A stretch of DNA of 64,000 nt from Bugula neritina (lineage: Eukaryota; Bryozoa; Gymnolaemata; Cheilostomatida; Bugulidae), in the NCBI GenBank assembly GCA_964035545.1, contig OZ037767.1, positions 29,245,628-29,309,627 of the forward strand, written 5' to 3'. The notes below the pieces were generated by a model. It did no database searches. It was not told the origin of the DNA and saw only the letters and a program-made list of their open reading frames with translations. The translations under genes and the position numbers were made by a program. Shown one piece after another: positions 24,206 through 30,555 of this stretch; the stretch's first letter is position 1, and every line of letters begins with the position of its first letter.

Positions 24206-27200
24206 ATGTTGACCAGAATTTCAAACAACGCCTTGTGGGCGTACCTTTCCTTTCAAGTTCTGGCATTAGTTTCGAATGCTGCTCCAATAAACAAATTCTA
24301 CAGTACATCTCCTGCAGGTATGAGTATGTATATGTGATAAAATATCTATAGAGTTTATGAAATAATTAAAGATAAAAATCTGCTAGCAAACTACGTATCT
24401 TTGTATTTATGTATCTTAAGTTTTGAGTTTATTTATTTTAAATATTTAAAATACTGTACTTCATTTAGCAATAAAGCGTAACTTTATTCAACCTTTGTTG
24501 CAGACCAGTTATATGTCGAAAAGAGCATATTCATGTTTATCAATTTTATCATTAGCACACGATTGTGCATACTGTAAACCTTTCCAAACCTTTGTTAAGT
24601 CTTATATATAGCCTGTAAATTTTACATAGTTAAACCTTTCATTTGAAGGGAAAAGACAACTTTGAAAATGTGAGCAATATACTCGTATTATTTAATAGCT
24701 GAAACTAGAATGCTGATGTTTTAATGTCAGCTTTAAGTTATATTAGCAGTTAATATTATTACTTTTTCCACTCACTGTGTTGTATTGACTAACTTTCTCT
24801 AACACCGAAAACATTGACTATAGTCAACAACATTGAATAAAGTACCGCATACCTAGTTATATAATAAAGATAGTACTCCGATTTTGTTATATGAAACAAA
24901 GCTAATTATAAAAAGTTATTAATTATTCCATAAAAATAAAATAATTGACATAATTATAAACTGCTATATATAGGAATATAAATCAACCCTTGTGCACTTA
25001 ATCATATACAAAAAATATGTTGTAAACTTGCAATAACATGCATTAAGAACATTGCCTGTTACAGATGATGTCTTGCCACCATGGTATTTAAATGGATGGT
25101 TGATTGCTATGTCTGTGGCTGTAGCTGTTGCCGCCGTAATAACTCTAGCCTGTTGCGCGTGTGGTGCTTGCAACTCAAGAGGTAATAACTCCAAATTTAA
25201 TTGCAAAGTTAGCTGAGTAAATACATAGTTCAACATATTATTATTATGTAGTGATGGACTGACTAGCCATCATGTTTAGATTTAGTTATTTAAGGGCTAA
25301 ATTGACATATGTTTTAGAAGAAGAGCAAGTTCTAGCACATAAAACTTGGGCTTCAAAAACAAAATAAAACTGTAAAATAATCCTTTGAAAATTTTTTCTG
25401 CAGCTGGTAACTAATGTATATCAATTATGTATGCAAAATATGATTTTTCTTGAAATGATGTCACCAATTAGTACATTAATAACTAGTTACTACCTTTGAC
25501 CTTTGACCTAGGGGCCATGAATGCTGACGTCTACCAGAGACACATGCGCCAGATGCGACAGCTAATATTGCAACACAACGCTCCAAGCGCAAAGCCAGAT
25601 GTCACCAAGCTAGCGCAGGATCTTCGTAACTTGGGGGTGGGTGAGAAAGAGGCCCAAGCCGGCTTGTTGACTGTTGGTCAGAGGGACCAGCTGGGCATCA
25701 GAGATGGTGATTTAGAGAAAATAGGTAAGTCACTTTCAGCTGTACTCAATTGCGTTCTAGTAAAACTAAACTAGTTTAAAGTAATATTCAACTATTATAA
25801 TAATATAGTGATACCTATTCAGCATGTAGTGACAGCCATGCAACTAACATATAGTGATACTCAACTAATGTATAGTAATACTCAACTAATGTATAGTGAT
25901 ACTCAACTAATGTAAGATGCTAATTAGCTAACGCATAGTGCTACTTAACTAATGCATAGTGATACTCAACCAACGTATAGTGATATTCAACTAACGTATA
26001 GTGAATCAATGAAATGGAATGACCAAAAGTAGCAATGTTTTACAGGAGGTAAAGAGAACCTATTCAGGACTCTACGACTTTTAGAGCTTCAAGATATTCA
26101 AGACGGTCAGAACGCGAAGCTCTTGCTTGCCAATCGCCCACAGGCTGTTATACGCCAGGTATCATACTTTATCTCTAGGTGTCATACTTTATCTTTAGGT
26201 GTCATACTTTATCTCCAGGTATCATTCTTTATCTTCAGGTGTCATACTTTATCTCTAGGTGTCATACTTTATCTTTAGGTGTCATACTTTATCTCCAGGT
26301 ATCATTCTTTATCTCTAAGTGTCACACTTTATCTCCAGGTGTCATACTTTATCTTCAGGTGTCATACTTTATCTCCAGGTGTCATACTTTCTCTCCAGGT
26401 GTCATACTTTCTCTCCAGGTGTCATACTCTATCATAAAGTGTCGTATATGCTTGTTATCATACATATACTTTTTAAATACTATATTATGTACACTCTTTA
26501 AATACCATAAGTATATACCATTTACATAGTATGAATACACTGCCTTCAAATAGTGAATACTATCAAGAAAGTACTTCAATATAACTGTTACGATGTCAAA
26601 ATAACTGCTCAGCATTAGCTATTCATTTAAAAAATAAAATAGTAAATTATGGAGAAAAGTTGGTGCAATGAAAAGCTACAAGCAATGCCATAAACTCTAG
26701 ATCATTTTTGTTTTACTGTCTGATTTCCTAAAGCCAGCATTTTGAGCATTGTTCTAATAAGTTGATAACATATTTTACAGCAAGGGCCAGCTACACCAGG
26801 TGCTAAAAAGCCAGAGACAAGACCGCAGCCAAATGTTATTATACCCACTGTTCCTCAAGGTAAACTTTTTATCTACCTAATATTTTTAAGGTAGACTTTC
26901 ACTTTATTTGTAGCCCTTAAATTGTATATTATGTAGCTTCCCACTATTTCTACAATAGCTAAAATCAAGAAGATGAACCCGTAAAAAGCTGTTAATAGCA
27001 GTATATCTTATAACACACTTCATCACGTTAATAATAACTGTTGTAGCAATAGCTTTCTTTTAAATGCTGCATGGCTATATAATATAGACTTTAGCTCCTA
27101 AAAGTTTTGAATGCTATAGGATGTGTATTTTGATTCATGACTTACTTGTAAAATAAAGCAAATTTCTTCAAATTCAAAATTTTAAACTGAAATAGCAAAT

Positions 27201-30200: not shown

Positions 30201-30555
30201 TGACGAGTACACCATTTACGACCAAGCTGGACCACAAGCAAGCCCTAACGCTGCGTGCGTGAGACCACAGACAAACGATGGAGGCGTTGGTGTAGCAGTC
30301 ACATCTGATTTTGACGAGTATACGATTTATGACCAACCTGGCCCACAACCGGTTAGAGCACCTCAAGCAAACAGAGGCGCAACTGGTGTAATAAGACCTC
30401 AGACAAACGAAGATGCCGTTGGTTTAACCGGAACATCTGATTTTGACGAATACACGATCTATGACCAAGGGGGTCCAGAGCCAGAGATGGATGAAGACGG
30501 TGCTGGGCTAGGTGTCACGTCTGATTTTGACGAATATACTATTTATGATCAATAA
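24206..30555 (+). CDS. single-pass membrane protein with nine YTIY motifs, ITAM-like; unrecognised family
   Basis: Not recognised. Twelve phase-consistent exons give 608 residues: 24206-24317, 25065-25181, 25512-25724, 26046-26158, 26781-26859, 27268-27438, 27527-27637, 27806-27941, 28362-28423, 29037-29151, 29503-29561, 30017-30555. Residues 1-25 look like a signal peptide (cut after SNA). The ectodomain is about 26-48, the membrane helix about 49-71, with Cys 67, 68, 70 and 73 suited to palmitoylation. The cytoplasmic tail has a charged region (77-211), then YTIY at 226, 263, 300, 333, 461, 494, 531, 575 and 603 in acidic [DE][DE]YTIY[DE] contexts. Three of the first four are followed seven residues later by a second tyrosine motif (YCIM 237, YGLV 274, YSLI 344), close to ITAM spacing. 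A basic stretch (about 410-428) separates the two arrays. A receptor-linked phosphotyrosine scaffold is an inference. Exon 9 and the first exon are the least certain. Confidence 0.85.
25795..26010. repeat. about 21-bp tandem repeat (AGTGATACTCAACTAATGTA)
   Basis: About nine or ten degenerate copies of a unit containing TATAGTGATACTCAACTAA lie in the intron between exons 3 and 4 of the YTIY-repeat gene, ending 36 bp before the exon-4 acceptor. Confidence 0.85.
26157..26440. repeat. 20-bp minisatellite beginning at a splice donor
   Basis: About 14 copies of a 20-bp unit, GTGTCATACTTTATCTCCAG, run head to tail from the donor of exon 4 of the YTIY-repeat gene. The exon ends CAG and the intron starts GTATCA, so the CAG|GT junction is part of the repeat unit and is re-created at each copy. 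In the exon-4 frame an in-frame TAG appears after about 39 codons. Confidence 0.92.
27955..28186. repeat. (CT)n microsatellite next to a donor site
   Basis: About 116 uninterrupted CT units, 13 bp after the inferred donor (AG|GTGCTC) of exon 8 of the YTIY-repeat gene. The long Ser-Leu and Arg-Glu open frames across it are repeat artefacts, although the Ser-Leu frame is continuous with exon 8 if the donor is not used. Confidence 0.95.
28500..28576 (+). mobile_element. tRNA-derived SINE-like head (possible)
   Basis: The stretch ATGGCAGCACGCTGACTTGC followed by AAGTTGGAGG and CAATTCTTGGTGGGAGCA has the order A-box-like, anticodon-arm-like, B-box-like, as in decayed tRNA-derived SINEs. The B-box is degenerate, so this is not a functional tRNA. 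It lies in an intron of the YTIY-repeat gene. No tail or target duplication was identified. Confidence 0.4.
29885..30000. repeat. about 50-bp direct repeats before the last exon of the YTIY-repeat gene
   Basis: Three degenerate copies of a unit containing CATATTAAGGAGTTGTCTAT followed by a T-rich run stand head to tail, ending about 16 bp upstream of the exon-12 acceptor. The T-rich parts of the copies probably provide the polypyrimidine tract. Confidence 0.65.

Follow-up and report, generated by a model that had tools for sequence, protein, structure and literature searches.

A putative LAT-type transmembrane adaptor with nine YTIY repeats in the genome of the bryozoan Bugula neritina

Transmembrane adaptor proteins (TRAPs) possess a short ectodomain, a single helix and a long cytoplasmic tail with multiple tyrosines, and a juxtamembrane CxxC motif is present in LAT, LIME, NTAL and PAG (passages of PMC4861716 and PMC2803307). 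The kinases acting on such tails select different sites. ZAP-70 selects tyrosines that have an acidic environment, Asp at -1 and neither Lys nor Arg nearby; Lck calls for a bulky hydrophobic residue at -1. An acidic -1 residue together with a strongly negative charge is distinctive of LAT and SLP-76 sites. Lck substrates, including the sites of immunoreceptor tyrosine-based activation motifs (ITAMs), are typically near neutral, and Lck does not tolerate Asp at -1 (all in passages of PMC5089863). A gene of comparable design was found in the bryozoan Bugula neritina. It occupies positions 24206-30555, plus strand, of a 64,000-nucleotide stretch, hereafter the window (GenBank assembly GCA_964035545.1, contig OZ037767.1, positions 29,245,628 to 29,309,627 of the forward strand). 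Judged from its sequence, the product probably works as an invertebrate transmembrane adaptor in the manner of the LAT/PAG type. The likeness to LAT may be one of function; homology by descent to a TRAP is not claimed.

The gene comprises 12 exons with GT-AG borders and agreeing phases (Table 1), which join into one open frame of 608 codons and a TAA stop (30553-30555). The start codon has an A at -3. The encoded protein consists of a hydrophobic N-terminus, a tiny ectodomain, one helix, four juxtamembrane Cys, a helical segment, a Pro-rich linker and the YTIY tail. About 23 ectodomain residues precede the helix, if the putative signal is cleaved near residue 25. The helix WLIAMSVAVAVAAVITLA contains zero charged residues and is flanked by an acidic stretch before and an Arg-rich stretch after. 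C67-x-x-C70 and C70-x-x-C73 are juxtamembrane CxxC motifs and candidate palmitoylation sites. An earlier note on this DNA had described the phase-consistent exons, the order of signal, ectodomain, helix and four Cys, the lack of a charged helix residue for receptor pairing, nine YTIY copies, and a second motif exactly seven residues on in three cases. Each of these points was re-derived, and the exon chain and repeats stand as confirmed observations.

The short ectodomain, single helix and multi-tyrosine tail of TRAPs are present in the gene model and its hydropathy profile, with a predicted topology, and the CxxC feature of raft-type TRAPs is present as a sequence motif. A small ectodomain, juxtamembrane Cys and a multi-tyrosine tail make up the TRAP description, as far as the cited passages give it, and LAT and PAG are therefore functionally closer to the protein than CD3 zeta. 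The palmitoylated adaptors of vertebrate leukocytes, LAT, NTAL, PAG/Cbp and LIME, share the tiny ectodomain, the one helix, the juxtamembrane Cys, the long tail and acidic-flanked tyrosines of the Syk/ZAP-70 substrate class, within the limits of the same partial descriptions. They differ in that no sequence relation was detected. Homology to a named TRAP (LAT, PAG, LIME, NTAL, LAX, SIT or TRIM) was looked for: no Pfam family passed its cut-off, the PDB gave nothing up to E 10, and none of 8000 proteins scored against the full-length query reached E <= 1; such tails align poorly. Further differences are the putative signal sequence, the helical juxtamembrane segment and the missing Grb2-type YxN set. 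The tyrosine sites of LAT differ from one another, whereas here one tyrosine unit is repeated nine times. The juxtamembrane segment of exon 3, for which a query found no homologue, forms three main helices in a single-sequence structure model (mean predicted local distance difference test 71.9) and can be set beside the three-helix, PEX5-binding N-terminal fold of PEX14.

The nine YTIY copies (Y226, 263, 300, 333, 461, 494, 531, 575 and 603) are arranged in two blocks, four copies in exons 6-8 and five in exon 12. The consensus around the first tyrosines is DFD[D/E]YTIYD. Exon 7 coincides exactly with a single 37-residue unit and has phase 1 at either end, as would be expected after exon duplication. 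YTIY is encoded by eight DNA spellings. Its proportion of synonymous differences (pS) is 0.636 and that of nonsynonymous differences (pN) 0 over the 36 pairs of copies, which are not independent of one another. In the nine-residue core, pN is 0.08 in the first and 0.00 in the second block at a pS of 0.85 and 0.71, while the linkers have a pN of 0.37 and 0.29 at a pS of 0.78 and 0.61. Since pN is low in the core and high in the linkers at comparable pS, the copies are old and their tyrosines held by selection: the YTIY motif is under purifying selection while the linkers drift. The repeats are not due to chance, given nine copies, differing codons, no YTIY replacement and the presence of the unit in relatives.

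These relatives are six proteins (P0001-P0006, E 4e-6 to 1.6e-2, of 1673 candidates) obtained with exon 12 as query. They are exon open reading frames (ORFs), five from ENA and one from another source, and carry 12 copies of DFDEYTIYDQG. Five units were compared for identity, namely window exons 6b and 7, P0001, P0002 and P0004. The three relatives' units are 51-73% identical to the two window units and 84-92% identical among themselves, and eight of the nine core residues are kept between both groups. P0003, P0005 and P0006 are near copies, left outside this comparison and counted in the motif table; as P0001/P0003 and P0004-P0006 are near copies, the number of species is small. P0004-P0006 seem to end an exon at the same residue as window exon 6, and P0001-P0003 after the same Arg as window exon 8. 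Conservation of the tyrosines, on which the earlier note had made its proposal depend, thus holds for the repeats only; these searches turned up no relative of the membrane exon. Within the 215.8-Mb genome of B. neritina, all 12 matches of a search fall within the adaptor gene. A relative as query gave eight matches, seven in the adaptor gene and the eighth at E 4.4; these two queries found no second copy.

Each of the nine first tyrosines has an acidic residue at -1 and a net charge of -4 to -6 within 7 residues, and in 7/9 window copies no Lys or Arg lies within this distance. By the rule in the passages of PMC5089863, the first tyrosine (Y1) of DFD[D/E]YTIYD suits a Syk-type kinase and the second (Y2), which follows Ile, a Src-type kinase. 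Y2 is followed by Asp in 8/9 window copies. Its +3 residue is Gly or Ala in seven of the eight copies having one, and one copy reads YDQP. A multivalent actin scaffold of the nephrin/Cas kind would make use of this second site, phosphorylated Y2 (pYD[E/Q/N][G/A/P]) docking Nck/Crk-type SH2 domains and driving the assembly of actin, unconnected with receptors of the immune type. The Asp after Y2 and the YDQP copy agree with such a scaffold, pYDxP/V docking sites resemble the Y2 context, and the genome contains an SH2 exon which we take to be Crk-like. Sites in nephrin and p130Cas read YDxP or YDEV, against pYD[EQN][GAP] here. The nephrin tail and the p130Cas substrate domain likewise offer many repeated tyrosine sites for SH2 clustering, as reported for multivalent nephrin/Nck in passages of PMC4238058, but the adaptor has neither Ig ectodomain nor SH3. 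With Gly or Ala prevailing at +3 and the acidic side sitting on Y1, the actin scaffold is quite unlikely.

The acidic surroundings of Y1 also allow a non-signalling explanation, in which the membrane topology is wrong and the repeats are outer or secreted, for tyrosine sulfation or adhesive use. Acidic tyrosines are a sulfation context. Sulfation needs neither a strict YTIY nor a hydrophobic +3 at the third tyrosine, whereas the repeats have a strict YTIY and a mostly hydrophobic +3. The acidic stretch before the helix, the Arg-rich stretch after it and the juxtamembrane Cys fit a cytoplasmic tail, and this explanation is highly improbable.

The genome gave at least 51 matches to SH2 domains (E <= 0.01), 30 of which were read as loci; Nck was not sought as such. 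A locus on contig 4 contains two SH2 domains and a kinase. Its joined pieces match ZAP-70 (3.7e-116), Syk (1.1e-112) and Abl (6.2e-70) in the PDB, and the best match of the tandem SH2 part is Syk (5.4e-31). The EGFR entry 9p9u ranks among the kinase matches with two kinase copies, each of about 192 bits against 297 for ZAP-70. The exons were joined by eye with approximate junctions, and one junction Lys missing from the kinase queries was recovered later. By these matches, the genome encodes a Syk/ZAP-70 orthologue on contig 4. Its FG loop reads GGRPYQKLKG, basic at three of the four positions that are basic in ZAP-70 (GQKPYKKMKG), and Lys504 is conserved. A locus on contig 7 has exons in the order SH2, ankyrin, SH2, kinase, the make-up of Shark/HTK16. 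Invertebrates have one Syk-like gene plus SHARK/HTK16 according to passages of PMC10253181, and typically one Syk-family kinase was found according to passages of PMC9601881. SH2 pieces of the Src type (1.2e-35) and Tec type (1.1e-14) were also found. Other SH2 exons presumably belong to Csk, Abl, SHP2, Grb2 and Crk. An SH2 exon on contig 5 (L033; G000:C5:5727162-5727350, minus strand) is closest to B-cell linker protein (3.1e-8) and perhaps belongs to an SLP-76/BLNK-type adaptor of the same genome. Upstream of the Shark locus, an ORF containing RTGDYTIVEDG and having no Pfam match lies at L054 969-1331 (+), and a further ORF near it contains VVYDQSYYTK. Draper/Shark of Drosophila likewise combines an invertebrate tyrosine tail with a Shark-type kinase, as far as excerpted accounts describe it. 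The adaptor differs from Draper in having no ligand-binding domain recognised by the Pfam search. Draper is a large receptor.

CD3 zeta, FcR gamma and DAP12 are the other systems to be compared. They too have a short ectodomain, and three of the nine window copies resemble them in a tyrosine pair 11 residues apart, the second tyrosine opening a Y-x-x-hydrophobic motif exactly 7 residues past YTIY (YCIM, YGLV, YSLI). Here, the first half has Tyr at +3, an extra tyrosine and acidic flanks, the helix is uncharged, and 6/9 copies are without a second half. The earlier note had proposed a multi-ITAM-like phosphotyrosine scaffold, not canonical owing to the Tyr at +3 of the first motif. The latter qualification is borne out, as YxxI/L-x6-8-YxxI/L has 0 matches in the protein and 3 once +3 may also be Tyr, Met, Val or Phe. 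A true multi-ITAM adaptor would replace Ile/Leu by Tyr at +3 of the first half and would bind, through phosphorylated first and third tyrosines of YTIY-x7-YGLL/YGLV, the tandem SH2 domains of Syk or Shark. The genome encodes tandem-SH2 kinases, and besides the three window pairs, 9/12 of the relatives' copies have a Tyr at +11 (YGLL 5, YGVL 3, YGLH 1). The other 3/12 seem cut by the exon end, the ORF apparently entering an intron right after the residue that ends window exon 6. This adaptor type is nevertheless unlikely in view of the 0 strict ITAMs, the second half lacking in 6/9 window copies, acidic flanks unlike ITAM sites (passages of PMC5089863) and a helix without the charge for receptor pairing. 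Tyr at +3 in the 21 counted copies adds to this, by construction, as the search was for YTIY. Of the earlier proposal, the single-pass layout, tiny ectodomain, multi-tyrosine tail, Syk/ZAP-70 orthologue and x7 spacing in most relatives' copies are retained; the ITAM identity is not supported, for want of strict ITAMs, most second halves and a helix charge, and for flanks like those of LAT and SLP-76 in the partial account cited. The interpretation shifts, with partial support, to a LAT-type scaffold whose first block carries a half motif resembling that of an ITAM. Since Syk itself is able to phosphorylate ITAMs (passages of PMC8605373), docking and substrate roles are not exclusive.

Several observations weigh against a LAT-type adaptor. 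Glu stands at -1 in 5/9 window copies and 12/12 relatives' copies, while ZAP-70 strongly prefers Asp, and Lys or Arg occurs within 7 residues in 2/9 window and 6/12 relatives' copies, contrary to the exclusion rule (both as given in passages of PMC5089863). The net charge round the first tyrosine is only -2 to -4 in the relatives. Grb2-type YxN is not found in the repeats, save one YDN. We know of no strong SH2 class for Gly, Ala or Pro at +3 of Y2. ZAP-70 Arg514 is replaced by Phe and Lys541 by Gln in the genome's Syk, and the BLNK-like assignment of L033 is marginal, with SHP-2 next (1.7e-7). The full-length query including exons 1-2 gave no protein at E <= 1 among the 8000 scored; such a blank would be unsurprising if unannotated animals are represented in the databases by single-exon ORFs. 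Exons 1-5 and 9-11 obtained no homology support in the sequence searches. A codon-usage score, for which 855 codons from the genome's Syk and Shark candidates served as training set, is low for membrane exons 1-2 (0.04 and 0.19, below an off-frame), and an off-frame scores higher in 7/12 exons.

These last points bear on a further alternative, in which membrane exons 1-5 belong to a different transcript from the repeats, as two genes or an alternative transcript. It draws on the unsupported exons and on the scores of exon 10 (-0.05), exon 1 and the higher off-frames. In frame, 12/12 exons score above the introns (mean -0.28 over 162 intron frames), and 11/12 score above zero. Because off-frames score higher in 7/12 exons, the score cannot tell the frame, which is told by internal stops: the chosen frame is the sole one without them in 10/12 exons, exons 1 and 5 having a second open frame. 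The guanine-cytosine content is 0.39-0.53 in exons and 0.25-0.33 in introns, with the exception of intron 8 (0.44), which contains a CT repeat. The exon 8 donor, GTGCTC, is unusual; relatives appear to stop the exon at the same residue. Phases agree throughout on one strand and the introns measure 88-747 bases, so that a split into two transcripts is very unlikely.

In the LAT-type mechanism, the helix and palmitoylated Cys would anchor the adaptor in the plasma membrane, its tail on the inner side. The acidic-flanked first tyrosine of DFD[D/E]YTIYD would be phosphorylated by a Syk-family kinase, or by Shark, and the second, preceded by Ile, by a Src-family kinase. With up to 21 phosphotyrosines in its repeats, the tail could bind SH2 proteins with high valency and gather them into clusters, in the manner of LAT or nephrin. 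In the first block, the third tyrosine (YGLL in relatives), 11 residues past the first, may dock the tandem SH2 of Syk onto the same tail that Syk would phosphorylate. Tentatively, and with considerable doubt, the gene may encode an invertebrate counterpart to LAT that evolved independently and carries, on one molecule, a docking half resembling that of an ITAM; the first block would recruit a tandem-SH2 kinase and both blocks would be its substrates.

Table 1. Exons of the adaptor gene and other features of the window (positions within the window; aa, amino acids).
Feature	Position	Strand	Content
Exon 1	24206..24317	+	start Met, putative signal sequence, aa 1-38; hydropathy peak aa 10-28
Exon 2	25065..25181	+	end of short ectodomain, membrane helix aa 49-66, Cys 67/68/70/73 (Cys stretch 25151-25171)
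Exon 3	25512..25724	+	helical juxtamembrane segment, aa 78-148
Exon 4	26046..26158	+	aa 149-185
Exon 5	26781..26859	+	Pro-rich linker, aa 186-212
Exon 6	27268..27438	+	YTIY copies 1 (Tyr codon 27309) and 2 (27420); Y237CIM (27342)
Exon 7	27527..27637	+	whole phase-1/1 unit; Y274GLV (27541), YTIY copy 3 (27619)
Exon 8	27806..27941	+	YTIY copy 4 (27886), Y344SLI (27919)
Exon 9	28362..28423	+	gene model
Exon 10	29037..29151	+	TVYEKV (Y394), matches TxYxxV
Exon 11	29503..29561	+	strongly basic segment PKSRVKSRVRTKVGKRVRL
Exon 12	30017..30555	+	YTIY copies 5-9 (30109, 30208, 30319, 30451, 30535), then stop
Long CT repeat	about 27957..28187		immediately 3' of the exon 8 donor
KCNQ potassium channel C-terminus exon	22232..22513	+	Pfam PF03520, 1e-16; upstream neighbour
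Open frames resembling a non-LTR retrotransposon	40422..44386	+	reverse transcriptase by eye; PHD match 0.00052, under its cut-off
Apolipoprotein L family open frame	44877..45398	-	PF05461, 5.1e-19
UPF0220-type exon	49175..49483	+	2.9e-12
CCDC23-type exon	55247..55516	-	4.1e-7

Botryllus has Src, Syk, a Tec-family kinase (ITK) and numerous further components of the lymphocyte cascade, and homologues of LAT and SLP-76 were not found in Botryllus or other ascidian genomes, according to passages of a 2025 review (PMC12065747). LAT is discussed for vertebrates in PMC10079008, and the word invertebrate is absent from its main text. If the combined docking and substrate roles are true, a single repeated exon unit of 37 residues contains the docking site together with the substrate, and the adaptor would fill the LAT slot that, in those passages, is reported empty in ascidians having Syk. 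The repeat gives defined peptides, in which one unit may be a docking site for a Syk kinase as well as its substrate. If a LAT-type scaffold was built by duplicating a single exon, it would illustrate how a hub of this sort can arise anew, and which valency and site sequence are sufficient for it.

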